Assembly (NCBI GenBank): GCA_029964075.1
Contig: CM057135.1
Location: forward strand, 19,246,863 to 19,310,862
From: Patiria pectinifera
Lineage: Eukaryota > Echinodermata > Asteroidea > Valvatida > Asterinidae
DNA: 64,000 nucleotides
Reading direction: 5' to 3'
Of the stretch, positions 27,022 to 56,835 are shown one piece after another (position 1 is the first letter of the stretch; every line of letters starts with the position of its first letter). A program made the translations under genes and the position numbers. Below the pieces are notes generated by a model. It did no database searches. It worked only from the letters and a program-made list of their open reading frames with translations, and was not told the origin of the DNA.

Positions 27022-27522
27022 TGTGACGTGTCGTGCCAGCTCTCCTGCGTCAGGTTTGTTTGGTTGGTAGCGTGCCGTCCCGATGGTGTCCTATCCCTGC
27101 AGTGGTGGGCCACAGCACCAGGCTATCCCCGCTTCTCGGTTGACCGCATCAGCCAGTAGTCAGGGCAGTGGAATGGGAGTGGGAACCGGGAATCGGAATG
27201 TGGAGTCGTAGGAAGAGGGTGAGTCGGAAAGTGGGTGGAGTAGGAATAGGGCGCAATAGGCGGAGAATGGGGGCTGAGTCGGCGGAGTCAGAATGTGGGT
27301 GGAGCAACTTATCTCCCCTCGGACTTTGCCCTGGACTTAGTCCTAAGTAGACCCTATACCCTAAGACAGACTAGTAATTGGTGAACAGAAACAGTAATCA
27401 AGTACGGTGGTCATGCCTTTTAATCATTATCATCTGTCATGTCATTCCACATAATCAAAAGCCTTAACAATTATTCTAATCATAAGAGAATCAAGCAATC
27501 AACTGACTTTCCTAGCCCCGCA
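27022..27522 (-). repeat. 3' LTR, distal piece
   Basis: It aligns along its length with 56,144-56,650 of the 5' LTR, including 'gtagcgtgccgtcccgatgg', 'ggccacagcaccaggctatc' and 'aagagaatcaagcaatcaac'. A purine-rich direct repeat array around GGAATGTGGGTGGAGT lies inside (27,170-27,305). The LTR breaks at CCTAGCCCCGCA, where the 14.4-kb element begins. Confidence 0.92.
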
Positions 27523-27762
27523 CAGGGGGCGGGGGGCGAAGGGGTAACGCCCTCTACGTTGAAATTGATCTCATTTCCCGCTAGCGACGCGACGTGGGCA
27601 GTTCGAAGCTCCGTTGTTAACGCATGTAGCTCCGTGCACATACGCATGTACTTGTATGTACGTACGTGCGTGGCGTGTTGTATAGTGTGTGCATCCCTGA
27701 TCCCGCCCGGTTAGGTTGTACGATACCGTGGGGCTCCTGCTGACCGTTTGAGCATTAGCAGC

Positions 27763-30700
27763 ATGGGAATCCATGGATTATTGCCAAAATTACGTTCAAT
27801 AGCAACCAAATGCAATATCAAAGATCTTCCTCCTCAATCCAAAATTGGAATTGATGCCTCAATTTGGCTATACAAGGGGGCGTACAAATGTTGTTTGGAT
27901 TTGGTTCAGGGGAACGAAACTGATATGTGAGTATAACGTTACTAATGACTGCTCCAATAATAAATACAATTGTTTCAACATGTTAAGTTCAGTTGACGTT
28001 GATCGAGTTATGGATAGGTGATTGGCTAAGTAGTCACAACCCAAGCCAGGCCTAGTACTAGTAGACTATACTAAACATGAGCCTTGGCTTGGGCCTTGCT
28101 TTGACATGTTGCAGATCAAAATTTACTTTCTTGTTGACTTGCCTAAGAAGGGCTTGCTTTTTAACTGAACCGTGTTGTTGAACTCCCAATTTAACAATGT
28201 TTTTAGATATCACTAAAACTAAACAGTCAAGTTAATTTCAGCCAAGTTTTGAAGTTTTCTGTGATTGTTGGGTAGAGTACAAAAATTGTTTGAGTTAGGC
28301 CAAACACAGTATCAATTTCAATTCCAAACTTTTTGTTTTTGGTCACTTTGTTTGCCACAGATACATCAAAACCTCCTTGGAGGCAGTCAGAGTCTTGACA
28401 GACAATGGGATGCAACCAGTAGTCATCTTTGACGGAGAACCGCTACCTGCAAAGGCCAATCTTCATGACCAACGAGCCAGGTATTAAAGAGATCGAGTGT
28501 GGTTGTAAAATATACCAAAACTTGGTGTTGATTAGCATAAAAAATGTTCAGGTGTGGGCAGACCCGGCTTGAAAATGATTATATGGTAAATTTCTAAAGG
28601 ATTGATTTTCAAAAGGGGCACCCGATGCCTGGATTCTACCAACGTTTTATATGCGTGTTAAAATAAACAGCCATAATTTAATTTCCTGCAGCGTTAGAAG
28701 AGATCCCCAGTCACAGGCAATAAATGCAGTAAGAGCAGGAAATCTAAAACTGGCCAGGAAAAAGGCTGCTGCCGGGCTATGTGTAACCCTGGATATGGTG
28801 GACAAACTTATGGTGGTAAGTTATGGATATTTAACATATTCTTTTAATTTATTCACTTTGATATGATTTAATAGTGACAATGGAAAAGTTACTTAATATT
28901 AAAAGTTAGGCCTATAAGCTGTGGTGGAGTGGCCTCACAACTGTTTTTTTTAATGTAATGTATTAAAGTAAATAAATAAATAAAACAAAAGAACAACAAA
29001 CGAACAAGTAAACAAAAGAAAACAAATTTGACCAGAAAATCAATTAGTTTTATTATAAATCAATGTTATTAAATTTACCCCAATACTAACATAAGAATGG
29101 TTTTCCCTTTCTACACAGGCTTTGAATCAGAACCATATACCATGGCAACAAGCCCCATATGAAGCTGATGCACAGCTTGCATATATGTATGCTACTGGAG
29201 TAATTGAATACATCATCACAGAGGATTCAGATTTGCTTGTCTATGGTGCATCAAATGTAGGTGACTTGTCCAGGGGTGGATCCAGGCCTAATTTTCTTTA
29301 ACGTGTTTATCTTTTATTATTTTTTGGCCGGATCAGGGCGGGGTGGGGGAGGGGGGGGGGTTCAACCCCCTCTGGATCCACACATGTTGGTAACTGTCTA
29401 ACAAGTGTTGTGTCATCTATTTAATTTTGAGAATTATGAACAGCAAGTTAGAAGTCAATAAGAAATGTTTGGTACAAGAACTGTTTTGCTATAATCCCCC
29501 TTTTAACAATTGATCAATACATTTTTGTTTCTAGGTTATTTACAATTATGACCTTATTCATGGCACTGGTGAGCTCATTACAACAGCAGAAATAAAAAAG
29601 GTGTTTCCATATCCAGCTAACAAGTTTAAACAGATGTGCATCTTGAGTGGTTGCGATTACCTCCCCTCGTTAGCTGGAGTCGGGCTTGCCAAAGCTGAAA
29701 AATTTGTGGCAACTATGAAAAGTGATGATGTTACTGAGGTAATAAATATATTTGAACATTTTGCTCATCTCTTACATTTGTTCAAATGTCGCCAAAAAGA
29801 ACAAATTCTATCAATGCTTACAATGGACAATTTATCAGGAAGTGATGTCTCCCCCGGAAAAAAAATAAATATAATGGGGGAAAAAATATCCATAAATTAT
29901 TCCAAGATACGCTGATAAAATGTGGAACAACTTTTTGACGCTTTATTTTCAAGCACACCCCCCCCCATCTACCCATGTAGCCCCCCCCCCCCCACCAATC
30001 TAATGTAGCAACTTATCAGCTTTCCACAAGAAAACTCTTCACCAGCAATTTTACTTACAGTTTCAAGTTCATAAGATGATAGGGAAGAATATGCAATAGT
30101 TACTAATAATTGCGATTTCATATTTTCAAAATTTTCCAGGAGCTACCCAACATTGAACGAGTACTTGGCCGCTCAGTTACCCTGGAGTCAGGCTACATTG
30201 AAAGGTTCAAGGAAGCTCTCTTCGTATTCAATCACCACATTGTATTTGAAGAACTTCCTTGTACCATTCACACAGCACACACCAGGCAGCCAACAGTACC
30301 CGTCAGCTGGAACGTATCCTCTGAATATCGTAACAGTTAATAATTATTTCATTTTAATGAAATAATTATTCACTGTAATAATTATTCACTGTAAAGTTAA
30401 TCTTAAAAGATTAAGTTTTGTTCAGCAGGGTGGCCACATGTTTTATGTAAATGAAAATTTTGAACCATTTGAACTGTTTGAGTTTTTTAATGATGTTTGT
30501 GTTATTGTGAACAAGTCTCGACAAGTGGAATTTGAAACAAAAACCAAGTACTTGCTAAAATGTCCACTCAAATCGACTCGCCCGTTTTGAAGGCTGGCTG
30601 CGGGCCTAATGCAGAAAAGCTATTGTTTGATATACACATTTTCTGAAATTTAAATCAGCCTCATACCAAACTATACTTGGCACTATATTAACTTTGACTC

Positions 30701-31166
30701 TATATAACCAGGACTGAAAGGCAGTTACCATTGCAGGGTACCATGAACATAGAGATGTTCAATCGAGATGATCCGGACAATTCAAGTGAGTGGTTTTATG
30801 TTTAAATAAACAGTGCAACCACTGCATGCTGGCGCCCCGTGCGCGTCAGGTAATGCATGTCGAGATAGCCCCTTTAAGGTAAAATGAAATTGAACTGAAC
30901 TGGGGCCTTTGCAAATGAGCTTTCCAGTATCTTTTCATATATGGCAGGTTAACGCAACCATGTCTCAGATGTATGCATCAATACTGAACAGAAATGTTGC
31001 CTTTCTTCCAGGTTGTCATGACACGTCTTATGATGAACCAGACCTGTCTTATGATTCAGATGGCTCACAGCGGTCCTACCTACTGCGATCTAGGGGGACA
31101 TCGTCCTCATTGATGAAATGGTCACAACAAATCATAAGTGGACAGTGCCCTGTTTGCCAGAACTGA
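27763..31166 (+). CDS. EXO1/XPG-type 5' nuclease encoded by the transposon
   Basis: Exons: 27763-27926, 28361-28480, 28692-28815, 29119-29256, 29535-29738, 30140-30313, 30737-30785, 31012-31166, all GT/AG with matching phases, giving about 375 residues. The start is ATG followed by GIHGLLPKL, the standard family N-terminus, in which the N-terminal Gly lies near the active site. Metal-binding acids lie at [39 protein letters not shown] and SGCDYLPS; a helix-hairpin-helix ([12 protein letters not shown]) follows. The order and spacing match EXO1 more closely than FEN1, and the protein stops soon after the nuclease core, with a short CPVC tail. Cellular EXO1 is about twice as long. All catalytic acids are retained. 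It presumably processes DNA flaps or ends during transposition. The last two exons are the least certain. Confidence 0.85.
29271..29386. repeat. Short hAT-type MITE in intron 4 of the nuclease gene
   Basis: Left end CAGGGGTGGATCCAGGCC; right end CTCTGGATCCACACATG, with a poly-G/poly-C interior. The ends match those of the eroded copies at about 34,178 and 63,520. No clear 8-bp target duplication was found. Confidence 0.55.
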
Positions 31167-31492
31167 CTTTGTCACTTGCCTTGGGTTCTGGCTATGTCAG
31201 CAATGTACCCTCAAAGCTAGCCTTGAACATGACACCACCGTGGTCCACCCCTAAGCTGCCAGATATAATTCCTCGATCAGTGCAGTGTAGAAGTAGTTGT
31301 CACATAGATATAGATGGCCAGCAGTACATCCTTCTCTGGTCATGGGAGTTCATTTTGGATGGGGTTCCATCGGATTAAGGTTCGCTAAGTGAATCATCAA
31401 GTGACAAAACAGACAAGGACAGTGACAATGAACTTAACAGCCAGTCAGAGGGTGAGGATGTGGTGATTGTGTCTGATGATGGCCAAGCAACT
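31118..31492 (+). pseudogene. Decayed or alternative 3' coding segment after the nuclease gene
   Basis: In a different frame from the nuclease tail, this stretch stays open except for one TAA at 31,376-31,378. It ends with a Ser/Asp/Glu-rich run (SDKTDKDSDNELNSQSEGED) typical of a disordered acidic tail. It stops where the TTAA-type MITE pair begins. It may be an extra exon, or C-terminal coding sequence that was lost through a frameshift. Confidence 0.45.
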
Positions 31493-32364
31493 ACTGACGC
31501 TGGTCGGCCGACCAGCGTTGGAAAAAAACTGGCTTTTTTTCAAATACTGGCCCCAATTGACCATCGCACTTGTTTGCAATCGATTACACACCTATGAACG
31601 GGTACAAGCCAGCTACACTGGTTCCCTGACCTTACAATTCCCAAATGTATGTAAACTGCTCTGTTTCTTCTTATATGGAGTCAGGGAACCAGACTACAGG
31701 AAAATGATTTTTGTTTTTATAGCATTTTCGAACCCAAAACCTCAAACAAGTCAGTGTAACTATATTTGCTATATATTTCTAACCCCCCAATTCCATCCAT
31801 TTCTGAAAATTACAGCAAAAGCAAATGATGTATATTCCCTTTAAAGGGAATATACATCATTTGCTTTTGTTGTAATTTTCAGAAATGGATGGATTTGGGA
31901 GGTTGGAATTTTATAGCAAATATTGTTACACTGACGTTTTTGACGTTTTGGGTTCGTAGATGCAATAAAAACCAATAAAAACAATAATTTTCCTGTAGTC
32001 TGGTTCCCTGACTCCATTTAAGATGAAAGGATAGACGTTTGGGGAATTGTAAGGTCAGGGAACCAGTCGGGCTGGCTTGTACCCATTTACAGGTGTGTTA
32101 TCGATTGCAAACAAGTGCAGACTTAGAACTGAATATGGTCAATTGGGGCAAGTATTTAAAAAAAAGCCAGGTTTTTCCAACGCTGGTCGGCCGACCAGCG
32201 TTGGAAATTGATACAAAATACCACTTTTCTTGAAAATGACAGTACACCAGGTGCCATGATTTTACAGGATGCTTTGGACTGTCATTAACTAACAGTCCCG
32301 CAAGATATTTCCTAATAATTTGGTAAATTTAATTTTTGATGTTTGCAAATGTTGTAGTTTCCCT
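31492..32364. repeat. Head-to-head pair of TTAA MITEs forming a palindrome
   Basis: The centre is TTAA at 31,841-31,844 within ATATTCCCTTTAAAGGGAATAT. The right copy runs from 31,845 to 32,364 and ends in TTAA (32,365-32,368). The left copy is truncated near 31,492. Each arm of about 350 bp repeats 'gctggtcggccgaccagcg', itself a perfect palindrome. It lies between the 3' ends of the nuclease and transposase genes. Confidence 0.85.
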
Positions 32365-32453
32365 TTAAGCACAGCCTGAGATCGAAGGTATTTGGTTTTT
32401 AGTTAATCTTGTCCTGTCTATTGTAACTGGTGCGATATCCAAGATGACACTTG

Positions 32454-35400
32454 TCACAGATTGGGTGGTGGAGGAAGAGGGTTCTCTACATGGTGATACT
32501 TGTCTCTGACAGTCCGCCTGCCTGCCCTTGGTGCTTTTTCAGTGGCTGGATTCAGGTTGGCTGGGTGTCTGACAAGCCATGTCTGCTCCAAACGCTCAGG
32601 TTTGTCACTAGTGGGCAAGTTAAAAGACTTCATTGGCCCCATCTGGTATCTCTCATCTTTTGTTTGGAAATAGTAGAAGGAGAGGTCGTCATCTATCCGC
32701 TTAGAAACTTCATTAAGGATCTTCCTGAAAGTATAAATTTTGAGATTTTCCATGGGCGGTGTGGTTCTTCAAAAAGTGGCCTTTTTTGACGAACACAAAA
32801 GGTGTTGGGGGTGGGGGCCAACCAACACTACAAAAAATGTTCGCAAATCAAACTTCAAATATAACATCTTTTGTATACTTACCTGTAGCTATGGATGAAA
32901 GCCTTGTGGTCAAATATGCGACCAAGCATATGGTGAACCACCGATATAAAAGCCTCAACGTCATCAGAGGTTGCTCCACGGGGGTGCTCAGGTGGAAGGC
33001 CTTCCTGGTTCTGCTCTCCTCGTAATGCCTGGCTTTCTATGTTAGCAATCAGCCCCACAACCACCTCCCTTGTGAACCCTTGTATTCCTTTTATTGGCCT
33101 GATGTTGATGGAAAGGTAAAAAAAAGGTTACTTTTTCACACAAATTATAAAGTAATATCAATCAAACTGCCAAAGCCTGAAACTATCCGCTTTTACAGGT
33201 GAACTTATATACACCTAACAGTCCTGAATCCTCCAATTTTAATTCAATTTTGCACAACCCCTAGGGAGTTAGGGTTAAACTACCTGTTGACATCTATGAA
33301 AGAATAATCTTTGTTGACTGATCCGCACATCCAATCCTCCAGGATAAACGTCAGCATGTCCTTCATGTATTTGGTTCTCAGTGCTTCACTTACACCCCTT
33401 GCATCGGAAGCCTTATGCCAGTTGTGGATTAGTTGTGCAAATCTGTAATGTATGAGCCAAAACAGATATAAAAATATAATTTTCCCCAATCTGTCCTGTA
33501 TACTCTGGTAATAGATTTTGCCCTGGTGCCAATGCGAATGCATCAAGTTTGTGGTTCCCGATACATTTAGACAACTCAGCCACTCACCATCAACAGACCA
33601 CTCAAAGCACTGAATATGGTGTTAATCAACGCATGTGAGGTACATGTAGGGCAAAAGCTATTATCATATTATTGCTCGCCAAATAAAACCTCGTGCATAA
33701 CAGATGAGATAACAAGTTGAAAAAGAAAATATCATGAAAACTGTCAATTTCAAAAGAAAGAGATGCAAATAGTACAACTAACAGTGCCAACTGGAAAAAA
33801 AATAAACCAACGATTAGACTAGAAAGCGGAAGGTTTTGAGTTTAAAATCTCACCAAAAACATTTGTGGAACTTCAAAGCATTGAAAACACGGTGCTTATG
33901 CACTTCTGATAAGGCAAAAGCTATTAGACTCTCATTACAGCAAGGTGGGACCCGCCAAATTACCTCTTTATAACAGGAGTGGTGTTATATAAAAGGAATG
34001 TTAAACAAAGAAACACAAAGAGAACCTGATATTTGAAACCTCAGAATTTACTCTTTATAAGCAGAACCTCTTTATAAACATGCTCTTTATAATGAGATTC
34101 CACTGTAACAAGATACCAATAAATTATTGGCAATAATGTAAAGGAAAAGCTGTAATCTTCAAGTAACAATTGAAACAGGGGTGGATCCAGGGGTAAACAA
34201 AGAAGGGGCATATGGCCAAGCCCAAAAAAGGAAGGGGGTTCAAATTAACTGTTAACCTTTTGATTTTTGTACATGGCTGATTGTCAGAAAGCGGGGAACC
34301 CCCCCCCCTCCACCCTTTGAATTAAAAGAGCAAAATCCCATTAGAAACATGAAAGAACATGTTAATATAACTGCTTAAGTACACAACTTTTTGTGTGATA
34401 ACTAACCTTCATGCTTGTAATTAAGTTAAGTTACTTTAATACAAGATGGTAAGTTTTAACAAGTTTAATAGATATGTGATGTAATTTAATATATCGTTGG
34501 AAACGCAAAACATGCATGAGGATGAAGCAGTAACCTTTCCTTTCCAAGAAGGAAATTACGCCTGGACTGAACATGCGTTCACAGTCTGGCACATTCTGTT
34601 TCCTTCCAGTTACTGCGGCTACAGTTAGCCCAGTGCTGGGGTCATGAAGAGCTTCTTCCCACCTGCCAAAAGTAGTTTGCCAACATACTTTTACTCACAT
34701 TTTGAATAACTGCAGAAACAATTAATTTAGTAGCAGATATAGGATTTGTTGTAAGAGGTATATGTATTATGGGGTTGTACATATTAAATAGGAGTATAAA
34801 GCACAGAGTTTGTTAATTGTGTTTCTTGTTGGTTTGTTGTTTTTGTTTTGAGGGATGCCATACAAGGGACAGTATTGCACTATCATGCATCATGCACTAT
34901 CATGTAGTATCGGAATGATTTGAAATGTTACTAAATAATCCAAAAAAACAGTGTTGCTTCCAAACTAGAAATGCTTTGTGAAATTAAACTAACCTGTGCA
35001 TATCGCAATCAGGGATATTTCCAAGACGAGCACACTTTGTTATGCGTTTCAGCAGATGGCAGTGATCCTCTCGGTCATGATAGGCCACTCCAGTGTTGGG
35101 GTCAACTTCTGGAACATACAAATGATTCTTGAAGTCCACCCCTTGGTCACAGTAGTTGTTTACGGTCATCCTGTAGATATAGGTGGCCATGACACTGCGA
35201 AGACACTCAGGGAGGCTTTCAGTAACCCCTGGAACAGTACAAATTATTTAAATGCATGTAGATGGATGTCAATGTTCAGTGGGAGACTTTTGAGAACGAT
35301 AGATGGCAGCAGACCTACCGTTTTTTCTCTAATGGTTGAAGATCACGCGCATGCTCAGAATGGCGTAAACAATGGAAATTTACCCGTAAGGTCTGCTGCC

Positions 35401-38400
35401 ACCTATGGTCTGAAAGTTTCCTATTCACCTTGCTTCAAACAGACTTTAAATAAAACATACATGAAAATGTGTAAATTACCTGGTGTCCATGTACAACATA
35501 ATGAAGGGGCATACAGGCGTTCATGGAGCATTTGCACTGCTGTCTTGAAGGAAACTCCTTGCTTCATTTGCTCATGGAGCCATGCAACATCACCGGTTGG
35601 AACAGCAGGATGAGTGATGGCAGCACTGACATATGTTGTTTCTGTATCTATGAATTCATAAAAAGATTAAATACACACATGTGGCCGGGAGTGGTGCTAG
35701 TGATTCCAGCAATATGTAATTTGAGGAGATTACTAATTGCATATAAATGTCTAATCTTAAACTAAAACGGAATATTCATGGTGTATCAAAATTTAGGCCC
35801 CCTCTTGAGGTTATTTTCTTGCTATTTGTACTACTCACCATGAACTATAGGGGTCAGGTCTGACTTTGGAATGGCTTTCGCTGCCTTCTTGGCATCCATG
35901 ATCAGCTGGATAGTTGATACAGAATGTGTCACTCCCTGTGTCCTTAAAGAGTTCCATTCTCCATCTGTCACAAACCCTGAAATTACAGTCAGTCAATAAA
36001 CGCATTATTCAAGTATAGTTGTGTATGTTTTGCCTGTTGTCCTCAGTACACACTTTCCTTTTGTTTAAATCAATTAATGGAAAAAGGAGTTTACTCGGAA
36101 GGGGTTCTACATTCTACACTAGGCCTTTGACCACTGTAACCCGGAATCTTCAATATAGTACGTCAGACTGCTTGACATTTTATGAGCAGGCCTTGCATCG
36201 GCAAGATGGCACACAGTGTCATTGAATTTTCTTTGAGGGAGGCAATATTAAGTAAATAGTTTACCGACTACTGTCATCTCAAGCGAAGTCATAGCTAGCC
36301 TCAGATCCACAGCCAACTCCCTGATTTTCTGATCAGTAAGAGTGGCGACTGGCATCACACGCACAGGAAGAGCATATGGCTTCTTCGTCCTTAGTTCATC
36401 AGAGATCATGAAAATTAACAGGTGGGATGCTACTTCTCTGGTGGCCCTTGTAAAACCCACTACGTACGCCCTCATATCTGTTCGGAGGTTACGAAGGTTT
36501 GTTGTGTCACCTACATGCATTGTTTTAGATAACAAAGAAAATAATTGTGTGTGTTAGTATCATGATAATGGGTTCTACCTTTTCTGACTTGATGTACATA
36601 CTGATTGCTTTTTGTCATCTGTAAAATCAAATCTACGGGTGAAACATTTACTCAAAATACTATGTCGTAGGTGGATTTCAATTTCCTCCATAAATGGATT
36701 CCCATGTCTAAAATCAGTCAACTTTTTGTTATTCAAAAAAGTAACAATTCAATGACAAAATGAACTCAAACGTACTGCTTATAAATGAATTAACTTTTGC
36801 GTTCAAAGAAAAAGTTTTTCATTACCAGAGGTTTTAACGAGCTCAGGTATTGGGCTCAGGTTCCCGTTCAGTAAATTTGTGATCAACCCTAATGCAATAT
36901 TTCAGAATTCACTAACAGTAAAACAATACGTTACCACTCTGAATGATATCAGTTATCGACTTTGTGATTTTCTTGTTGGACATCATAAGTGCTGAGCATG
37001 TTTGTGCCTCCCATGCTGCTTCCACCAGAGCACTCTGTGGTACCTTTGGATTTGCCTGTTTTTTTTGTGCACATGCACATGACATGGATGTCAAATACAG
37101 TACATACAATACAGCATGGAACTATTGAAAACTGAAGGAATAAAGGTACATGTATATCGAATGGAATTACCTTTGGTTAAGGTCTTCTTCTCTGACTGCA
37201 ACTTCTCCAGGCACGTGGGAAGATCATTGATGGAAAGATTGTCAATTAACAGTAGCCTCGCCTTATATGCCGCATGCTTGTCATGCAACTCACCCGTTCC
37301 CAGATCAACATCACCTTTCCGCACACATTTATTCAGACAATATGGAAACACAATTTAGGTTATTTATTAATAAGTCAAGTCGTGTTTACAAGCACTGATG
37401 CCCCAATGAGCTGAGCTCTGTTAATCAGCACACTTCGTCAGGTTTTGGTGCAAATTATATCTTGACTTTCTGAATCCAAATTTTATAAATTTCGGAACAA
37501 TCAACCTATGACACTTGCATGGTGACAAAACAATGAAGTGAAACTCAGGTTATATGCCCGGTGGATCATGGATGGACAGACAGATGAACAAAAACATCCA
37601 CACACATACCCCCCGACACCCAGCTTAAAAGACTTTATCAACGGGGCATAACAATGTCAATTTGTTTTGGAGAAAATGGTATTACCACACTGTCAACAAG
37701 GACCAACTCATTGTTCTTGGGGAAAATAAGCAACTGATCTGTCCAAGGTTGTACTTCATGCAGGTACGTATAGACTGCTTTTTCACAAACAATTAACACT
37801 CATCCTGCAGTATATTTAATGAAAATGAAAAAGAAATTGCAAAAAAAAATACCACTTTTACTCTCACGCACTCCCTTGTTGATGTCACAAGCATCTGCCT
37901 TAATCCACCACCTGCCACACGGATTACTTCGGAGTGCCTGTTTCAGCATCTCCACCTAAGACGATATATCAAAAGCTGAATATTCTAATACTTTAATAAT
38001 GTATTGAAATATTAGTAAATAAAACACCCAAAATAGAAAAATGCATGTGTAGTAAAGCATGGTACTTCATGAATGGAGTTGCCAATTAAAACACACACCT
38101 GAATGGAAGCATCTGGAATGAACATCTTTGATTCCATCCGTTTTCGTATAGTTCGTGACGACAAGCCAACAACATTGACTTTTGCCTGTTCAAAAGGAAA
38201 AATAAATAAGCTTTAATACTCATCTCTGGACTGGTATGGTGATAGCACCAAAAAAGCTGGTCATTATTAGTTAGCACACAAGCTCGAGTGTTAAGCATTA
38301 TTTCGCGATGATTAGCACGCGCAAAGCTTAGAACTTTATTTTGCACTGTTCGTAACGGAGCCCAACACATGACACTCACAATACGCAGAGTGCAATAAAA

Positions 38401-39268
38401 AAAACTGGGAGTATGATATGATTTATTATCAGACACTCCAGTTCGAGCATCTGATTGCAGGATTAGTGCGTACTGGAAAATGATATTCAATGTTTGTACA
38501 TGACTGAATTTCAACCCTGTTTGCTCCCCTATGATCCACTCACGTGTGCAGTCTCCAGCCTGTGTCTTTCTGGCCGTGTTGACATCCGGGTGATGTTGTG
38601 AAACTGCCTCTGTATTGGAGAGTCTTCAATACTACCCAAGGCAGTTTGAGACATCCTCTTCTCAGGAGATGAAAGTGGGGTTGATGATGGTAGAGTTGAT
38701 GATGAAGTTGATGGTGTTGCAAATGTCAAATTCTTTGCCTCAACCAAAATGTCTACAGAGTCGGTGTATTTAAACATCGGCCCAGAAAACAAAGAAAGAA
38801 ACCTCTCCCCAAACTGGGCGTACAATGTCTCCAAAAAGACGGCATACGCAGGATGAACCGTTACCTGGTCCATGTACCTCTTATAGAAGAACTGAATGTT
38901 CGTTTCCAAAAGTGGATATGGCATTTTATCCATGTTCATCTTATGTGTTCCTAGCACCTGTGCAAGCTGATATATTGTATTGGGCCTACTTGTGTTCATT
39001 ATGACAGCCATACCCTCCAGTAACTGTTTAACACAGTCACCGGGTACACTATATTCTGGGTGATATGTCTTGAGGCATGTAGAAAATAGGCTTTCCAACA
39101 TCTTCAATGTTTCACTCTGGTGCATTTTTTGAACAGTCTTTTGAAGGTCTTGATGTGTCAAGCATGTGGCATCATCTTCTTCGTAGACAATGTTATAGTG
39201 GTCTTCCGCTGATGCCACTGTTTCAAACTGTGACCTTAATTTTAATACCTCGCAGCGACATGCATTAC
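32454..39268 (-). CDS. Academ-like transposase, multi-exon
   Basis: Exons (minus): 39268-38544, 38185-38099, 37955-37853, 37314-37171, 37055-36935, 36510-36265, 35976-35839, 35647-35480, 35228-34994, 34662-34535, 33442-33284, 33098-32883, 32724-32454. All recognised exons are free of stops and most joins share phase; the joins 37171/37055 and 34535/33442 do not, so a small exon may be missing at each. The stop is at 32,454-32,456. Conserved-looking acidic blocks are KADACDINKG, GDVDLGTGELHD, FVTDGEWNSLRTQG, HDREDHCHLLKRI and HPRGATSDDVEAF. Three of them (ADACD, TDGEW, SDDVE) are candidates for a DDE-type RNase-H-fold triad. The N-terminal part carries ACRCEV. The protein is at least 900 residues. 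I recognise the style from large invertebrate transposon proteins; the Academ name is an inference strengthened by the XPG partner gene. Confidence 0.75.
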
Positions 39269-40680
39269 CTGTTAAGGAATATCAAGTTGACCTTAAGCAT
39301 CTTACAAGGGCTTAGCTTTCTTTTGCACTACACACCAGGAGTAATCATTCATCAATTTTGCCAATATTTGCAAACTGCCACTTCTGTTGAATTTTTTTTT
39401 AATTGGGTGGGGGGGGGGGGGAAGCGTGTCAACAAACAAATTAACCAATCATCATTCATAAACAATGACAAAATACAGTACCTAATGAATACCACTTGAT
39501 GTTACAGAACTTTAGTCTGTATGCAGCTGCTATCAGCAAATAAAATGAGAATGGACTTTTTTCACCTTGTCAAATAAATTTTAAGCAACTTAGGACAAGC
39601 GCATTCCCAAATTAATGTATACTGTACATGTTGTATTGTAAAATTGCACAACAGCTTATCCAGTTAGGTAAGAGCCTTATGTTAGGTGCACAAACCTGAT
39701 CTCGATCCTACAAACTTGGAACAGGATAGCCAAAAGTCATCTTGGTGGTGTACTGGCCATCCTTCCTTCCCCTCTGCTGTGTGGTACAAGGCAACAAAGG
39801 ACACCAAAGATTCTCTCTCCATCTGGGTCCATCCATTTTGTATGAGCTGCTGAGAGATTCATTATCAATATACACATTGTTTTTTTTTAAATTAAGGAGA
39901 ATGTACACAACATTCTATCTCTATGGTAAACAGTTCTGGGCAGTAGATAAATATTTGGTTAAATTACACCAGTGCATTAAAATATTAGCTTTACATACAC
40001 TGTACAATTATAGATAACAAAATATACCCAGTTCAACTTCATTGAGAGATGCAAAAAGGGGTAACTGGGTGGGTGGGTGGGTGGTAGGGGGTTGGTGTAA
40101 AAATCCTTGTACAAACACGCACAAATGACCATTCCATTTTAGAATTTCAACTTTGTTAAGTGCCAATCATCCACAAGTATATTTTAAAAACCATTTTTAT
40201 TTTCCCTTAAAAAACGCGATGATGTACAATGTGTCACATGGTGTTGTGTCACCAGGTGCATGTGTATTACAAAGCACACTTTACCCCTCCCTCCAAAAAT
40301 AAATGAATAAATAAAATAACTAGGAAAAAACAGCAAATACAGCATTTTTTAACAGTTTTTTGCGTGGAAAAGACAACTAATGTTTCTTAAAGGTTGTAAT
40401 GTGTGCAACTATTTTAAACACATTATTATATATCAAGATTTTATATTTAGAGACAACACTTCCAACTTTTGGCTTGACTTGTCTAGAGAAAATGCAATCA
40501 ATTGAATTTTAGAGGTTGATGGTTGTAGATATACCTACTTTCAGAATTTTACCAAGTGCCTATGTTCACCAACCCATATTTGACATTGTCATTTAACGTT
40601 TGCTTATTACCTTATATCCCATACATGTAAATTCTACTAAACATTATTATGTTTGGAAATTTTAGAAACATAATTCTTAC

Positions 40681-40797
40681 TCTTCTGCTTGGATTGCACA
40701 GGCACTTTGATGGTGGTTTACCAGGCGTATGCCCCGTCTCAACATGTGGGCGCCTGCGTCTACTCTCATTCTCTCTACTCATGCTTGATACATGCTG
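40681..40797 (-). CDS. Candidate upstream exon of the transposase gene
   Basis: An acceptor TTGCAG lies before 40,797 and a donor AGA|GTAAGA at 40,681. The peptide includes a possible start (SSMSRENESRRRRPHVETG) and a Cys-containing end (SKCLCNPSRR). It is basic, as expected for an N-terminal DNA-binding or nuclear-localising segment. Its donor phase does not match the next known exon at 39,268, so another exon may intervene. Confidence 0.45.
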
Positions 40798-41936
40798 CAA
40801 GTAAAACAAAATGGAAAGATTTCCATATACGAAGTTCACTCAACACCCTGTGTACAAACCCTATGAGATTGGACTGAAAAATTATAAGTGTTTTCTAAGA
40901 AAATGCTTGTATTTTCTCACTGCTCAAATTGACTTTGATGACATGAAATTGCTATCTGGGGGCTTGTTAGTCAATACAGAGGAAAATTAGTGAACTTCGC
41001 ATATGGTAATCTTGCCGCTGAGGTTTGTAGTAACGTTAAAGCATGGAGGTAGGGCCTACACTAGTCATGCTATTGCTAGCTAGTACTAATAGTAATATTT
41101 ATGATATCCCAGATAACATTAACAATAACATGGATGGAGTTGTACAACTCCCTGATGATCTGACGATCCAATCCACATGATCCAATTCCAAGCCAAGCTG
41201 GGCCAAGGGCATCCTCACACCCACAGCAGAGAGGTACATATAGAATTTACTCGACTCAACTTAGCAACAATCATTAACTCAAAAATAACTCACCAAGCTT
41301 CGTTGAGCATGTTGAGAAGAAAGCTGTAAACGCTTACACACAATATGCACATGTACGTCTCGCTACACGTTTTCACACGGAACCGGTGCTCGCGAGGGGT
41401 CACGTACGTACGTATTCATCAACATCTGCTGCGCGTGCGGTGCAGCGCTGAGTAAATGGCAGAAACCATTTTCTCAAACAAACCCTGGAATAAACTGTCA
41501 AATATCTAGAGGATGTACGGAGCGATTTTTGTGAAACTTCCAGGAACAAAAGATCGATCCTTAAAAATTACGATCAGAGAAAAAAATCAGAGGATGAACG
41601 ATACAATTTTTCAAATTATGTCGATATTTGTACCCGTTTCAGGGGAGATATTTTAATTTCCCACCTAGACACATTTAAAGCAGTTAAGCACGTTGATCCT
41701 GGCATAAATCAATGACAAATGTTCGCTAATGTTTTTACGCATATTTATATAAATTAAGCAATCGTATCAATTGTAATTACTCGTTGAACCTATGCTGTCA
41801 TGTTTTCAATGCTGATAAAGAGAGCATTTCAACTTTTTTTTTTAAACAACGCTCACCTCTTTTAAAAATGGAATGTATCCAAAGAGAATAGTCAGCGATT
41901 TTTTTGTCTGGAATCCAGACCCCCCTTCCGCCCCTG
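40798..41936. promoter_or_regulatory. Terminal region of the 14.4-kb element, probable transposase promoter side
   Basis: There are no exons. A locally GC-richer patch at about 41,340-41,460 (gctgcgcgtgcggtgcagcg) lies upstream of the transposase gene and could hold its promoter. The last 20 bases form the right terminal inverted repeat. The promoter call rests only on position and base composition. Confidence 0.35.
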
Positions 41937-42125
41937 CCCTGCAACTACTTTTATAGACTCTAAGCCCCATAAGCTAGTGTACAACTTCTCTTTGCCATAC
42001 AACAGTGCATAAACTCAATTGACCAATCACAAACAAGGATCCCTTATATGCAAAGTTTGGGTAAATCACAGTGTGCTAGTGTATTTAAAACATACAGTTG
42101 GTGACATTATTCCTATTCCGTCACA
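41937..42125 (-). repeat. 3' LTR, proximal piece (U3 start)
   Basis: It aligns with 56,647-56,835 of the 5' LTR ('caacagtgcataaactcaat', 'acatacagttggtgac', 'cctattccgtcaca'). It ends at TGTGACGG on the minus strand, next to the polypurine tract. Together with 27,022-27,522 it makes one complete LTR. Confidence 0.92.
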
Positions 42126-42141
42126 TAGCCCCCCTCCCAAA
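42126..42141 (-). other. Gypsy polypurine tract
   Basis: The minus strand reads TTTGGGAGGGGGGCTA directly before the LTR start TGTGACGG. It is in the expected place for priming plus-strand DNA synthesis. Confidence 0.75.
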
Positions 42142-42309
42142 GTTTTCAGTCCCTGAAAACCAGTACAAGAAATTTGATAACAGCTTTGGCTAAATATTTT
42201 AGATGAAAATATTTTGCATACAAAATCAGTCAGGTAAATTTATATTCCCATGCACTTCTCCGAACCGTAATTTTGGAAATTCCTAATAAATAATCCGTAC
42301 TTTAACTTA

Positions 42310-42560
42310 ATTTAAGTTTTGTCCTCAACTTTTTAACATGAATATGAAAATATAAACAACTGTATAAAGTTAGTCCTCAAATCTTGACATGAAAATGCAA
42401 ACAATAATCTTCAACTCTTATTTAAATGTTTTGGTCCTCAACTCTTAACATGAATAAATAGCTGAATAAAATAATCCTCAACTCTTAATATAAAGTGTAA
42501 ACAGTCGTATAAATCAGTCCTCAACTCTTCGAATGAAAAAAAAACCCAACTCTTAAAATA
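42310..42560 (+). repeat. Tandem array of about 50-60-bp units in Gypsy 3' region
   Basis: The word 'gtcctcaactcttaacatgaa' or a variant recurs about five times (42,312, 42,374, 42,432, 42,475, 42,517), separated by 'aaacaacygtataaa'-like spacers. It lies between the zinc-finger ORF and the polypurine tract. Confidence 0.7.
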
Positions 42561-42816
42561 ATCTTTAACAAGTAGAAAATATATATTGCTTATAGAAACA
42601 CACCTTTATAAATCTTTAAAACTTACAACAACATTTGTTTCCAAAACTTTATATTTTTTTATTTCATTTTTTTAACTGAGATAAATAAGTTGAACTTAAC
42701 GCCTATAAGCCTTGCATAATTGCACTCTTGCTTGGCAGCTTACGGTAGGTGGAATGTCCGCTTGGTCTCCTCTTGGTGGCAGACGATGTTGTCCCGGTAG
42801 AACGTCGTGGCGATCG

Positions 42817-43518
42817 TCAGTTCAATGCGGTTAGCCGGGGTTTCCGGACTCGCCAGATACCAAGCCCGCCATCCCTCTCGTCGTTGTCCGTTGACGAGTC
42901 CACAGTTACCGGTGGGTCCGCGGTGTAGGCCCGGAGAAGTGTCTTGAGGTTCTTCCCCCCGGTGCGTGGATGCAGCCTTGCAGCTGGCTCCACTTCGGTG
43001 GTCGATTCTGGTGCCTGTCGAGCAGCGGGCTGGATTTCGATTGTGAGCTCCGGAGGGAGAGGTGAGAGTGGAGAGGTAGAGTGGGGGTTTGTTGCCTGCG
43101 GCCTATGGTGGGATGATCCCGACGAGGTCTTACTGCTTGTCCGGTGGTTTTTGCTGATGTGATGATCCCTGGAATCCCTCCGGGTGAATCGCTCCCCGCA
43201 TACTTCACAGCGAAACCTGCACTCTTCCCGGTGACACTCTCTCATGTGTCGGACGAGGTTTGACCTCGTCGTGGTCGTAGTCTCGCACCCTGGGTGTGGG
43301 CAGCGGTGCTCTTGCCGGGACGGGCCTCGGGGTTCTCGTTGCCTGTCTTTTCCCTTGTCTTTGCCTCCTGGCATCCTGCTCTCCTCCGCGCTGTCACAAC
43401 TTATGACTTGCAAAGTTACTGTCGAACCGATCGCTGTCGTCGGAATCGCTGTCGTCGGAACAATTGTAGTCGGAATCGCTGTCGTCGAAATAATTGTAGT
43501 TTGAATCGCTGTCGTCAA
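42817..43518 (-). CDS. Accessory C2H2 zinc-finger ORF of the Gypsy element
   Basis: A 233-codon open frame lies between the integrase end and the 3' LTR, where envelope or accessory genes sit in some Gypsy elements. It begins with a Thr/Ile repeat (TTAIPTT units), then a basic stretch and two fingers: CPHPGCETTTTTRSNLVRHM..CH and CEVCGERFTRRDSRDHHISKNH. A Pro/Glu-rich tail follows. There is no signal peptide or membrane segment, so it is not an envelope. It could bind nucleic acid or be a captured host gene piece. It is open although pol is broken. No upstream splice sites were checked further. Confidence 0.6.
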   Translation of the reverse strand: MTTAIQTTIISTTAIPTTIVPTTAIPTTAIGSTVTLQVISCDSAEESRMPGGKDKGKDRQREPRGPSRQEHRCPHPGCETTTTTRSNLVRHMRECHREECRFRCEVCGERFTRRDSRDHHISKNHRTSSKTSSGSSHHRPQATNPHSTSPLSPLPPELTIEIQPAARQAPESTTEVEPAARLHPRTGGKNLKTLLRAYTADPPVTVDSSTDNDERDGGLGIWRVRKPRLTALN

Positions 43519-44206
43519 AATAATTGTAGTCGGAATATTTCTCTAGAGGCTGAATACGTGCGGGTGAACTGTACGGATAAGTCTGAAGTGGGAACTGTAC
43601 CACATGCACTACGCGCACGCCGTGTGGCGCTGGCATGGCAACGGGGACACGCGCGCTACGTGCAGCGTTACCATACTCTGGTGTCACTAGAGGGCGCTGT
43701 TCGATGATTATTTCTAAACACCACGGCCAATGTGTTTTTCGTTGTAATTTGAAGTTATTCGTAGTCGTTAAGTGGAACTGGGCGTCTTCGTTGTCTGACA
43801 GGATACCTTTGCTGCTTTGGCAGTTTGATGGTGGCTTCTTCCGTTGATTTTGATGCTTTTGTGGGTGTTTCTTGATTGACATCCAATCTATTCTGCACAA
43901 GTTGGCTTGATTCCGTCGCTTTCCCATCATCATATTGCTGAGCTGGCGGTTGGTTGATTCCAGAATCACCCTGCTTTTCCTATTGTAGTAACCCCAGCGA
44001 GGGGAAGGGGTTGGGTGGTGTCTCGTTATCAACTCCGAGGAGGGGAAGTGATCCCGGGTTCCGGGCAAGAAGAAACGAAGAGTCTTGAGACACCGATGTA
44101 TCCCCATATCTACTTGTTTATTGCGAGACTGAGATCCAAGGGACACAAAGTCAACCAACATGCAACAGCGACGAATACAACTTATTAAGATGTGTACGGG
44201 TAACAC
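43394..44206 (-). other. Second open frame overlapping the zinc-finger ORF start
   Basis: A 270-codon frame in another phase reads through the same 30-bp repeat array, encoding acidic SDYNYFDDSD units. The 30-bp unit is a multiple of three, which by itself keeps all three frames open, so protein status is uncertain. The frame ends at 43,394 inside the zinc-finger ORF. Confidence 0.3.
43428..43545 (+). repeat. 30-bp tandem repeat
   Basis: Units of the form gaatcgctgtcgtcgraaya followed by attgtagt(c/t)g recur just under four times. The array lies inside the zinc-finger ORF, giving Thr/Ile repeats in one frame and Asp/Ser/Tyr repeats in another. Confidence 0.85.
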
Positions 44207-44929
44207 CGCGGAAAACCCCCAGAAAGACCCCTACGAGAGAAAAATGCACAAAAACTAGTTCATGAATTTATCCCTCACATACATTTTATGAATACAATTA
44301 CATTTTGATGAAATACACTATTTAAAGTGAGTCACACTTTAACCTTAAATTTATCTCACAAAATACATGTAATAACAGGTCCGGCCGCCAACACTCACCC
44401 AACACTGGAGGGTTTCAGAAAAACCCGTTCCACGGCCGGTGTGCATGTAGGCTAGCAGCCCCCTGCCTGATGTACTATCTAAAAGCCCTGTTTATGCTGC
44501 ATACGAAACAGAAACCTTTTCGTGACACACAGCACAAACCACACAGTGGAACGATTAGGAAAATGTATTACAAATGTATCAATTTTACCTCCCGCTTAGC
44601 CGAGCCAACACAATGCGTGCACAACTGCCAAAAAGCAACGTGTATTCCACGCGCAAAATCATGTGCACTGAAAACGATGAATTGTGACGGTCCTTCCCAA
44701 GCCATAAAGTGTATAATCTTGATCCCCAACAAGTTTGCTATCATGTGATATACAGATGCTCACCAAGATCTCCTCAGAGAGTATTTTATGAAAGGTTTTC
44801 TCACCGAGAGCCATCCAGGTCGAGGCCTAGTCTGTTCCAGCTCATTTGGAAAAGGACCGCTGCAACACAGTAAGACGCAAGGGCGCCCTCCGGCCGATAA
44901 GGCGATAAATAAAATTACACACCCCTACA

Positions 44930-45549
44930 CTATTCATTGCTTGTATTCTTCTCGTTGACGGGTCTTTCTGCTTCTCTAGTCGGCAATTCTGACGGTTCTT
45001 CTGCTGACTCGTTTTCCGGACGAGATCTGGATTTTACCCGCCAGTCCTCAAGACTAGGCTTGTCGTAATGCACGACTTTAGATTTGGAACTTGGCTTTTC
45101 TTGGACGCGGAACGTCACATCACACAGCTATCTGTTACGAGGTAGGGGCCCTTCCACTTGAACTGCAGCTTGGGTGAAAGCCCTTTCTTCCTTGCCAAGT
45201 TGTGTAGCCACACATACATGCCATTTCAGATGTTATTTCCCGCCACATGCTTTATCGTAGTTCCGCTTCTGTCACTGTTGGCTTGCCTTGATGTTCTCTC
45301 TTGCTTTGTCATGGGCTTCACTCAGTTTTTCCCGAAGGTTTTGGACGTAGTCCGTGGTCAGTGGATCCTCTTCCTCTTCTTGTACTTCCGTCAGGGCATT
45401 CAGGTGAAGGGTTATTTCTCGTCCCATCAACATGAAGTAAGGGGACTCTGACGTTTTGTATTGGGCCGCACTACGGTAGGCCATCATGGCTCGTCCCAGT
45501 CTTTCTGATCTGGTTTCACCATGACACTCACCATGTTCACCAAAGTCTC
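44930..45549 (-). pseudogene. Gypsy integrase, C-terminal part
   Basis: After the LINE insertion, coding sequence resumes with LVNMVSVMVKPDQKDWDE, then MAYRSAAQYKTSESPYFMLM, the usual post-catalytic helix region of Ty3/Gypsy integrases. It ends near VQEKPSSKSKVVHYDK. A stop after WDEP breaks the frame at about 45,484, and another change near 45,270 splits it again. Stops at 44,930 close pol. Confidence 0.8.
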
Positions 45550-45554
45550 GTTAA

Positions 45555-48500
45555 CTTGGTACTTGGTACTTGGTTGTTTCCTCCTAAAACATCCGCTAGG
45601 GATCTTGACTAGGAGGTCACGGGGAGGTGTCGGCACCTGGGTCTCGGTCATGATGTGGTTGTAGTAGTTGTCCCTAAAGGTCTTGTGCGTCAAAGAGTCG
45701 GTGATGTGTTGGGGCAGGTCATTCCATAATTTAATTGTCCTTGGAAAAAATGAGTTCTTGAATACAGTTGAGGATGTTTGCACTATGTTAAATTGGTTGT
45801 TGTTCCCCCTCCTGGATCTCTGTGTTTTTGGTTGAAGATAGTCTGTAGCATCAATGTCACACTCTAAAAATTAAATCGTCATTGAGGCCTCTTTGTTTGT
45901 CAAAATGAATAAATTTGTTTAGTAATTGCTGAATGACTAATTATCTGTTATGGAAGACTAATTTGCCGTCAATGATGACTAAAATAAGTTGTCATTTTGA
46001 CTAATGTACATTAGTTACGTGTATAAGAATGTCATTGACTAACCTAAATTAGCCATCAGTGGTGGTTTTGACAAATGACGCGCAGTCAATGTCTCTGAAG
46101 AAAGATCGAATACTTGTCAAAATTAGTCATATATTCCTTCTGACTAATGAAGTTTGTTATTTTCCCGCCGTTGATGTGTTTAAAAATAGCGGGACTCATC
46201 GATGATGTTTTGTTAGGCGTACGTGTATACGGATATGTTACACTCAGTTTGTTAGGCAGCCATTAAACGGACATCTTCCTTCCTCCATTTCAACCATGAC
46301 GAAGGTAGGAAAACTATGATTTCGTATGGAGTTGTTAATTGACATGAGTTATGAAATGAGAGTACGGTTTTGAGGGAAGTGGGTTGAATCAGAAGGAACA
46401 AGCTGTAGCCTATAGATACCGGGTGAGACTCTTACAAAATTTTATGCTTGTACTTAGGCACATCTTTATGCTTCAAAAACGTATGCGGTAGGCCTAATAG
46501 GTACGTATAAGCCATGTCGTTGTGCAATTTCTTTGCAACACACTAGTGAGTTTGTTGTGCCAAACCATTCATGTACCAATTCCTAAACTAAATATATACT
46601 TAAGATAGGAGGGGAACTATTGCATGATTAAGAACATTCCACGATTTTGTTGATTTTGAAATATGGACATTGCAGTAATTTTTGATTAAAAAAAAACGAG
46701 GAGAAAAATAAATAATATGCAACAAATAAAGAAAGATTTTCTCTGTGTGTTGCTTTTGCAGCTGTGAGCATGATCATGCAGTGGTAGATGAAAAGATCTA
46801 AACACTGGCCCTGTGATCCAATTGTACAACGAGTGAGATACAAGTCAGCTGTGACCTCATTGTGACCCGGAGATGTACACATTATGGTGTACCATTAAGG
46901 ACACTAGAACGGACACAAAAAAGTGCTATTTCAGTGGATATTGTCTGGACTAAAGTGTGATTAGTCAGAAATTCAGTTACAAATCGCGCAAGTCGCTTGA
47001 CTACAGATTAGTCGTATCAAGCAGGTTTCTATTCTTGTCATATGACTATATTTTAAGTCTGAGTCTGACTCTGACTAATCTATGGTCATTAGTCATCAAT
47101 ACTCTGTGACTAATTTAGGTAAGTCGTACGAGACATATCACTGGACATTTTTTTTTAGTCAAAATGACAAATTAATTTTTAGAGTGCAATGGTGTGAGTG
47201 ATGATCTTGTAGAGTTGAGTCATCTGGTGGGTTCCCCTCCTATCAGTTAACTTCTCCCATCCAAGAGACGATAACATGTGGGAGACACTACTCTGTCTGG
47301 TGTAATCTCCATGAACGAAGCGTGCAGCTCTGTGCTGAATTTTCTCAATCGCAGACTGATGACTGACTTTATAAGGTTTCCATGTTGCTACACCATATTC
47401 TAAGAGTGGCCGAACAAGTGGGAAATATAACCTTTCCTTTACGTTTTTGGAGCTCATGTAGAAATTTCGTTTGATGAAGTTGAGGACCCTCATTGCCTTG
47501 GTAACAGCATGCTGCGTCTGATTTTCCCATCCCAAGTCATGTTGGATTTTTATGCCCAGGTACGTAAATTCCTTGGTTGCTTCAAGACCCACTCCATCCA
47601 TCTCATAGGCAGGTTCTCCAGGGTTGCGTTTCCGAGAGACTCGCATCGATTTACATTTGCTCGCATTAAATCGCATACCCCACATAGTAGCCCATCCAAT
47701 GAGGTTGTCTAGGTCAGCCTGCAGTAATTTCTCATCTTCATTGGTGTTGATCTGGTGATATATGAGGCAGTCGTCGGCAAATAGCCTGGTAACGCCCCTT
47801 ACAGCTGATTGAATGTCGTTGATGAAAAGGAGGAACAACAAGTGCGGTCCCAGCACAGTCCCCTGTGGCACACCGCTGAGAAGTTTATGCCAGCTGGACA
47901 ATTCACCGTTGACAACAACCCTCTGTAGCCGGTTGTTTAGGAATGCAGAGATCCAGTTTTTAATCTTTCCCCTGATGCCGTAATGATCGATCTTCTGAAG
48001 GAGTTTCTGGTGTGGTACTGTGTCGAACGCCTTTGAAAAGTCCAACACTGCTATATCAGTGGTGATACCATTGTTGTGATTACGGGCAAGGTCATTGAAA
48101 GTCAAGATGAGTTGACTCTCACATGAACGTCCTCTACGGAAGGCATGCTGATTTTCAGATAAAATTTGATGCTGGTCGAGGTGCTTCATCAACTGACCGT
48201 CAACAATATGCTCCAGAAACTTGCAACACACTGAAGTTAGGGACACTGGTCTATAATTAGCTTGATCAGATGTACGCCCTTCTTGAACAATGGGGTTATG
48301 TTGGCCTTCTTCCAATCTGCCGGCAGTTCACCTGTGTCTAAAGATTGTTGGAAGATGTACGCAAGGATGGGGGCGATTTCATCCGCAGCAAGTTTGAGGG
48401 CTCTATTTGATATTTGGTCTGGCCCAGCTGCCTTGGAAACGTCCATTGATTTAATCAGTTTCAGAACACCTCCCACAGTCACTTTTATGTCAGGCATGTC

Positions 48501-49162
48501 AGGGTAACTACTGTCAGGCAAGCATGGTAACTGCGACGCTTCCTCTCTAGTAAAGATGCTACTGAATTGATTAGCTAGAGCCTCGGCTTTCTCCTTGTCA
48601 CCAGTTATGTCAACATCATTAACCTTGAGGACCTGCACACCAGAATTATTTCTACGTTGTGATTTGATGTATTGCCAAAATTTCTTAGGGTCATCAGTAG
48701 ACGTCATAACTTCCACATGGGCCCGATGAGCTTTACGGAGTTCACGGTCCACATATCTGCGGATAGATTTAAACTTTTCCCAATCGGACTGTTTGCCAGA
48801 TTTCCTTGCACGGACATAAAATCTCTCTTTTTTCCTAGTGAGACGCAAGAGATGAGTTGACAACCATCGTGGCCTAGTTTTCCCTTTCACAAACTTCTGT
48901 GGCACTAACTTTTTAACAATGTTGTTTAGCCCGTCCCTAAAGAAGGTCCAATTTGATTCAGTTGTATTTTTATCTGGGTTTGCTTGAAAGAAATCTTCCC
49001 TCAATTTTGCTGCAGCCGCTTTAAAATCTGCTTCCTCCACACTTTTCCACTTCAAGATTCTCCTCGGTGGTTTTGAAACAGGAACAGTTTTGATGGAGAT
49101 ATCAGCCAGGAAGATTTCATGGTCACTTATTCCAGAAACTGCGTGGACATTTTTGACTGCCA
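45555..49162 (-). mobile_element. CR1-like LINE inserted in Gypsy integrase
   Basis: The target duplication GTTAA flanks it (45,550-45,554 and 49,163-49,167). The 5' end is truncated inside the endonuclease just before its SDHEIFLADI motif. RT follows in two frames (49,055-48,237 and 48,315-47,179) joined by one frameshift at about 48,270. Motifs: ANITPLFKKG, LDFSKAFDTVPHQ, SGVPQGTVLGP and the catalytic RLFADDCLIYH. The C-terminal tail (FFPRTIKLWNDLPQH) is at 45,784-45,640. The 3' end carries ACCAAGT tandem repeats, typical of CR1/L2 tails. A second element (45,860-47,186) splits the RT tail. Confidence 0.88.
45860..47186. mobile_element. 1.3-kb TIR element nested in the LINE
   Basis: Ends CACTCTAAAAATTAA and TTAATTTTTAGAGTG form a perfect 15-bp inverted pair. 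CAATG lies just outside on both sides (45,852-45,856 with a 3-nt gap; 47,187-47,191), a candidate target duplication. Subterminal zones on both sides are packed with GACTAAT or its complement. No transposase is visible. The interior around 46,190-46,320 and 46,735-46,790 has features like a 5' UTR with ATG and donor, and a pyrimidine-rich acceptor. Confidence 0.8.
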
Positions 49163-49167
49163 GTTAA

Positions 49168-50450: not shown

Positions 50451-50572
50451 CTCCGTCCAGATGAAAGTCCGGTTCTTCTCTGTTATTCTGTGGAGAGGTT
50501 TTGTGATGTCAGCAAAGCCCTTAATGTACCGTCAATAATAGGAGGAGAGCCCTAGAAAGCCCCGTATATCCT

Positions 50573-52505: not shown

Positions 52506-52510
52506 CTAAG

Positions 52511-54698: not shown

Positions 54699-54703
54699 CT
54701 AAG

Positions 54704-56143: not shown

Positions 56144-56835
56144 TGTAATGTTTAGTGCCAGCTCTCCTGTTTCAGGCTGGTTTGGTTGGTAGCGTGCCGT
56201 CCCGATGGTGTCCTATCCCTGCAGTGGTAGGCCACAGCACCAGGCTATCCCCGCTTCTCAGTTGACTGGATCAGCCAGTAGTAGTCAGGGCAGTGGAATG
56301 GGAGTGGGAACCGGGAATCGGAATGTGGAGTCGTAGGAAGTGGGTGGAGTTGGAATGTGGGTGGAGTAGGAATGGGGCGGAATGGGCGGAGTCAGAATGC
56401 GGGCGGAGTCAGAATGCGGGCGGAGTCGGAATGTGGGTGGAGCAACTTATCTCCCTTGTGACTTTGCCCTGGAATTAGTCCTAAGTAGACCCTATACCCT
56501 AAGACAGACTAGTAATTGGTGAACAGAAACAGTAATCAAGTACGGTGGTCATGCTTTTTAATCACCATCTGTCATGTCATTCCACATAATCAAGAGCCTT
56601 AACAATTATTCTAGTCAAAAGAGAATCAAGCAATCAACTGACCTAATCCTAGCCCTGCAACTCCTTTTATAGAGCCCCTTAAGCTAGTGTACAACTTTTC
56701 TTTGCCATACAACAGTGCATAAACTCAATTGACCAATCAGAAACAAGGATCTCTTATATGCAAAGTGTGGGTTACTCTCAAGGTGCTAGTGTATTTACAA
56801 CATACAGTTGGTGACTTAATTCCTATTCCGTCACA
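56144..56835 (-). repeat. 5' LTR (692 bp)
   Basis: It runs TG..CA: on the minus strand it starts TGTGACGGAATAGG and ends AAACATTACA. The purine-rich repeat (GGAATG(T/C)GGG(T/C)GGAGT) is expanded at 56,335-56,445. It is the full-length reference for the split 3' LTR. GTAC follows at 56,836. Confidence 0.9.

Follow-up and report, generated by a model that had tools for sequence, protein, structure and literature searches.

We analysed a 64,000-nucleotide stretch of the genome of the asteroid Patiria pectinifera (613.5 Mb), here called the window, and found that its positions 27523 to 41936 (contig C7) are occupied by a DNA transposon of 14,414 bp with two genes in opposite orientation. Our results make it likely that this is a cut-and-paste transposon that duplicates 8 bp of its target and encodes a DDE-type transposase together with a nuclease of the EXO1 lineage, the latter aiding end processing or gap repair.

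Ends, target duplication and empty site

The element begins at 27523 with CAGGGGGCGG and finishes at 41936 with CCGCCCCTG (CCCCCCTTCCGCCCCTG). It interrupts a long terminal repeat (LTR), a second copy of which lies downstream in the window:

27523..41936, unstranded: whole transposon (shared ends, duplications, empty sites)
27523..27544, plus strand: left terminal inverted repeat, CAGGGGGCGGGGGGCGAAGGGG
41920..41936, minus strand: right terminal inverted repeat, reverse complement CAGGGGCGGAAGGGGGG
27515..27522, unstranded: left target duplication, GCCCCGCA, 8 bp; ancestral GCCCTGCA
41936..41943, unstranded: right target duplication, GCCCTGCA; its first G is the last base of the element
27022..27522, plus strand: interrupted LTR, left part
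41937..42125, plus strand: interrupted LTR, right part
56144..56835, plus strand: uninterrupted LTR with the empty site

We compared the outermost 278 bases on the left side of the element and 297 on its right side with the genome and scored at least 40 matches for the left-end query and at least 40 for the right-end query. Dozens of short, non-autonomous copies bear the ends of the element and terminate at identical places, the equivalents of 27523 and 41936, so that the element withstands the check on copies running past these positions that the initial annotation had named as able to refute it. This recurrence of the CAGGGG termini, together with the interrupted LTR being whole elsewhere, upholds the proposal of the initial annotation that the segment is a transposon. 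Since both ends are present on copies of about 0.6-1.1 kb, the short copies are internally deleted relatives. Mutual identity among 32 of them (some from one tandem array) has a median of 98.9% and a minimum of 91.3%, which indicates that the family was recently mobile. A second long copy (L065) measures 8.2 kb, is rearranged and contains a repeated internal segment. On another contig, the region C14:46742329-46752547 (part of it in locus L093) holds four short family copies at a spacing of about 3.16 kb; this array is a non-autonomous copy amplified in tandem along with its surroundings.

Target duplications were scored in 63 fetched loci plus the window. Rows were kept when the left end began no more than 12 bases in, the right end reached base 285 of 300, the two lay no more than 15 kb apart and the left flanks were distinct; loci missing an end were left out, as were duplicate entries for one place, giving 39 rows. 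An exact flank repeat of at least 8 bp was present in 32 of the 39 (14 of 8 bp, 10 of 9, 7 of 10 and 1 of 12), compared with 5 of 1482 mismatched flank pairs used as a control. Repeats longer than 8 bp were, in the cases looked at, due to chance overlap with the terminal letters. The seven rows lacking an 8-bp repeat were the window, L065, two tandem-array copies in L093, L008, L011 and L089. When CAGGGG and CCCTG were required at the two ends, 13 rows remained (12 short copies and the window). All 12 short copies have exactly 8 bp, the sole length between 3 and 12 that fits them; under this strict rule the window element itself fails the 8-bp test.

The window element had been credited at first with a 7-bp duplication carrying one mismatch. 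The pair CCCCGCA/CCCTGCA is indeed seen, but the length typical of the family is 8 bp and not 7, and the pair is a slightly eroded 8-bp duplication. In the left copy a T to C change separates it from the ancestral GCCCTGCA, and at the right junction one G appears to have been lost. The ancestral state comes from the LTR: in the downstream window copy the empty site, which had also been claimed from the start, is uninterrupted and reads CCTAGCCCTGCAACTCC, and the same holds for 8 of 8 further copies fetched from the 39 other genome matches listed. Nine of nine copies thus run through the site as CCTAGCCCTGCA, so that the ancestral target is GCCCTGCA.

With the insertion subtracted, the two window LTRs lie about 14.7 kb apart, and the other listed pairs 4.3-4.4 or 8.0-8.5 kb. 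The interval between them in the window (42130-56143) exceeds those spacings and would reflect a further insertion, unless the two LTR copies are unrelated.

The plus-strand nuclease

The plus-strand gene lies next to the left end of the element:

27763..27926, plus strand: nuclease exon 1, XPG_N
28361..28480, plus strand: nuclease exon 2, XPG_N
28692..28815, plus strand: nuclease exon 3
29119..29256, plus strand: nuclease exon 4, XPG_I
29535..29738, plus strand: nuclease exon 5, XPG_I
30140..30313, plus strand: nuclease exon 6, where the nuclease domain ends; 3' edge unsure
30712..31378, plus strand: C-terminal tail in several pieces, splicing unsure; 31094-31378 partly matches Ptychodera P0014

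Pfam recognized XPG_N (E value 2.8e-15) and XPG_I (E value 2.5e-19) in this gene, and among solved structures the best match was human EXO1 (E value 2e-47), with the acidic boxes kept in the alignment. The EXO1/XPG-type nuclease announced by the initial annotation is therefore there. Its five metal-binding boxes hold as acidic boxes aligned with those of human EXO1, and their conserved acidic residues are the ones that we take to bind metal.

A protein database search returned 934 matches with an E value of 1e-20 or better, and the best 120 of these were EXO1-like or fungal PIN-domain proteins with 32-39% identity. We built a tree of 43 rows from 41 of those 120 (trimmed to 330 residues), the element nuclease and the EXO1 of the host. 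The element nuclease grouped with Branchiostoma lanceolatum P0007 and P0009 (amphioxus) and Ptychodera P0014 (hemichordate), with support of 96/92 and apart from the other 39 rows, and the host EXO1, which lies on another contig (C14), joined a frog row and a bird row (100/97). The element nuclease sits on a long branch (2.01), and no sister is supported for it inside the clade (90/37). A piece of the tail is also similar to P0014 (25% over 80 residues, E value 1.3e-6, calculated against the fetched proteins only and without composition correction).

The nuclease has 16 matches in the genome, located in the element, in L065, in exon-1 remnants within two short copies and in the host EXO1. Exon 1, whole or in part, adjoins the left end in three other family-ended copies (L065, L004 and L002), the remnant in L002 covering residues 24-58. 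Both the tree and the presence of exon 1 within these other copies lead us to reject the possibility that the gene is simply the host EXO1.

The nuclease domain is split by five introns, with phases 2, 2, 0, 0, 0. The host EXO1 has introns at the same aligned positions and in the same phases for five of five (host positions read by eye). The retention of the five EXO1 introns suggests capture as DNA rather than from mRNA, and judging from the sequences the nuclease most likely descends from a cellular EXO1 gene that was captured as intron-bearing DNA.

The minus-strand gene, a probable transposase

Transcribed toward the nuclease is a gene of many exons:

40681..40782, minus strand: transposase exon 1, start codon
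39696..39846, minus strand: exon 2, Myb/SANT-like
38544..39268, minus strand: exon 3
38099..38185, minus strand: exon 4
37853..37955, minus strand: exon 5, first candidate catalytic D (WWIKADACD)
37171..37314, minus strand: exon 6
36935..37055, minus strand: exon 7, weak support (18.5 bits), out of frame with exon 6
36265..36510, minus strand: exon 8
35839..35976, minus strand: exon 9, second candidate catalytic D (GFVTDGEWN)
35480..35647, minus strand: exon 10
34994..35228, minus strand: exon 11, DxxH motif (REDHCHLLKR)
34535..34662, minus strand: exon 12
33284..33442, minus strand: exon 13, out of frame with exon 12
32883..33098, minus strand: exon 14, candidate catalytic E (TSDDVEAFI)
32454..32724, minus strand: exon 15, stop codon

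All 15 exons are backed by relatives and by splice sites (exon 7 weakly), with GT and AG at their inner edges. A gene of 13 exons without stops had been described; in the frame that best matches the relatives no exon has an inner stop, but the count is 15, and 12 of the 14 junctions are in frame. Stop-free micro-exon candidates numbered 17 at junction 12/13 and 9 at junction 5/6, which is in frame without one, and none was chosen.

The joined exons matched at least six unnamed proteins (from amphioxus, brittle star, coral, hemichordate, sea fan and one of unstated source). A profile search matched at least seven, five of them new and all five from amphioxus; both counts are lower bounds, as scoring in each search was confined to the 8000 candidates with the most words in common. 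WWIKADACD is found in 7 of 10 rows, the element included, with WWVKADACD in one relative; GFVTDGEWNS and REDHxHLLKR vary slightly and each occur in 8 of 10, and LPPEHPR..TSDDVEAFI is present in 5 of 10 and varies at one letter. We take these motifs as D, D, DxxH and E after known DDE enzymes, and by this analogy the minus-strand gene would encode a DDE-type transposase with a D-D-DxxH-E pattern. Its Myb-like N-terminal stretch can be aligned in six of nine relatives; Pfam recognized Myb in one of six proteins (E value 0.0028).

No Pfam transposase family exceeded the cut-off in the nine relatives, several of which are fragments, under filters that drop most matches above about 0.1; the one hint was TNP-like RNase H (E value 0.13), far under the cut-off. 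No solved structure in the PDB matched the transposase profile at E values up to 10.

Just upstream of transposase exon 1, the 204 bp at 40813-41016 match locus L067 (2263-2461) at 94%, and 28 bp there also match inverted; this is probably a small nested repeat. Between the 3' ends of both transposon genes sits a foldback repeat of about 0.7 kb (31499-32205), which has segments in common with another foldback repeat at 16219-17387.

We also considered DUF6729 transposons, to which the amphioxus model P0131 pointed, as the usual partner of the nuclease and rejected them, their 17 genome matches (on C422, C5, C16, C6, C15 and C1) being on contigs other than those of the 16 nuclease matches. Several of them have long open frames and they probably represent another transposon family, the domain being present in the transposase-like amphioxus protein P0131. 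This Branchiostoma belcheri protein combines DUF6729, DUF7869, a piece like the nuclease tail of P0009 and 64 residues of a transposase relative, and it is probably a fused gene model over nested transposons.

Weighing the readings

Under the preferred reading, the minus-strand transposase, which has a Myb/SANT-like N-terminus, would bind the G-rich inverted ends (roughly 17-22 bp), cut the element out and insert it at target cuts staggered by 8 bp. The plus-strand 5' nuclease of the EXO1 lineage would most likely process the strand ends that excision or insertion leaves behind. Were the donor break resected, gap repair that restores the element there would be favoured, and abortive gap repair would yield the internally deleted copies that are seen. 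Aborted gap repair can give rise to a repeated internal segment like that of L065, and a carried EXO1-type nuclease could promote such repair.

Several observations weigh against a transposon in which these two genes work together on these ends. For most ends of the short copies, similarity to those of the focal element is only about 85-90% (range 74-91%). With a difference of some 10%, the short copies may have been moved by a different, related transposase or autonomous relative, now missing or unassembled. All 13 genome matches of the transposase gene lie within the window, so its tie to these ends is drawn from its position and its relatives. The motifs are comparable in part of the rows (first D in 7 of 10, second D in 8, DxxH in 8 and E in 5, the rest being fragments), and an AlphaFold model of relative P0001 built from nine sequences (mean predicted local distance difference test score 51, predicted template modelling score 0.35) was too poor to confirm the DDE fold. 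Compared with the second copy, four nuclease exons carry 7 replacement and 6 silent changes in 180 codons and have diverged about as much as the introns, with no sign of constraint; this comparison lends no support to a nuclease that functions at present. Two of the 14 transposase junctions, 6/7 and 12/13, are out of frame, which could reflect small unfound exons or damage.

Signs of decay also bear on the condition of this copy. The reading frame is open over the nuclease core and over the transposase motifs. In the nuclease tail there is an apparent frame change close to five consecutive G at about 31091, with the P0014-like piece in a different frame from the piece before it, and a TAA stop at 31376 is followed shortly by the foldback insertion. 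With these signs and the two out-of-frame junctions, the description of the element as intact or nearly intact is doubtful, and the present copy may no longer be autonomous.

The main question is which transposons the element belongs with. An XPG nuclease paired with a DDE transposase is the hallmark of AcademX, whose nuclease-bearing elements were reportedly described by Kojima in 2020. The element shares with AcademX a transposase gene plus an accessory nuclease, of the XPG type in AcademX as well. According to PMC10045372, duplications measure 9-10 bp in AcademH and 3-4 bp in AcademX, which are linked to a helicase and a nuclease, and duplication length is proposed to follow the accessory enzyme. 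The 8 bp found in 12 of 12 canonical short copies agrees with neither, so the Academ assignment made at the outset is not supported where it can be tested. The element does not match AcademX as published, and it is set apart by the published duplication length, not by a comparison of transposases. AcademH is likewise a DNA transposon with an accessory DNA-processing enzyme, but our element has a nuclease, and no helicase family was among the Pfam matches of five element pieces and the relatives. In view of the shared gene pair, we give somewhat less than an even chance to a place within Academ, be it in AcademX or in a third lineage, with 8 bp as an unusual duplication length.

The element could instead be a member of some other superfamily whose duplications measure 8 bp (hAT, P or KDZ/Zisupton-like), or of one not yet described, having acquired its XPG nuclease independently of AcademX, a reading to which we give the same chance. 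CAGGGG ends like those of the element occur in many hAT transposons. Its 8-bp duplication is the length usual for hAT and is also reported for Zisupton in PMC12730594. No hAT domain was matched by Pfam in the nine relatives (some of them fragments, under strict filters) or in four separate gene pieces, and no KDZ transposase domain in the same nine relatives. Beyond the TNP-like RNase H hint, these Pfam and structure searches matched no transposase family or solved structure, and the element differs from hAT and KDZ/Zisupton in carrying an XPG gene. According to PMC9587614, accessory nucleases are present in the DNA transposons KolobokE, KolobokD and KolobokP, on the opposite strand in KolobokP; there the nuclease types and the superfamily are other than those of our element. 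In the literature searched, which did not extend to Repbase and Dfam, we found no XPG-bearing transposon with 8-bp duplications.

Two further alternatives concern how the parts of the element fit together. The ends and the nuclease could be one transposon and the transposase part of another inserted inside it; the transposase is found once, the nuclease and the ends recur, and other insertions are present within the element. We nevertheless consider such nesting quite unlikely: no second pair of ends was noticed around the transposase, although no dedicated search was run, and amphioxus P0131 has related nuclease-tail and transposase pieces, though it may be a fused model. A nuclease carried along as a passenger, with no part in transposition, would agree with the decayed-looking tail and with the lack of constraint relative to the second copy. 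This also appears unlikely, for the catalytic core is open with its acidic residues conserved, and related nucleases in amphioxus and hemichordate form a clade apart from EXO1. The element nuclease shares with cellular EXO1 the XPG nuclease domain and the five introns, and differs from it in its separate clade, its other C-terminal tail and its location inside a transposon.

Returning to the reading of a cut-and-paste transposon with both genes, we tentatively suggest, at not far short of an even chance, that the element represents an animal transposon lineage distinct from published AcademX and possibly a new superfamily, with 8-bp duplications and an EXO1 gene that was captured with its introns and turned into a nuclease of transposition or gap repair. 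If true, such a lineage would break the proposed tie of the accessory nuclease to short duplications. Finding 8 bp in an element with an XPG gene means either that the duplication rule suggested in PMC10045372 fails within Academ or that XPG nucleases were acquired by several lineages of transposons. A transposon equipped with a resection enzyme of the EXO1 type would allow a direct test of what donor-site gap repair contributes to gains in copy number and to the origin of internally deleted copies.

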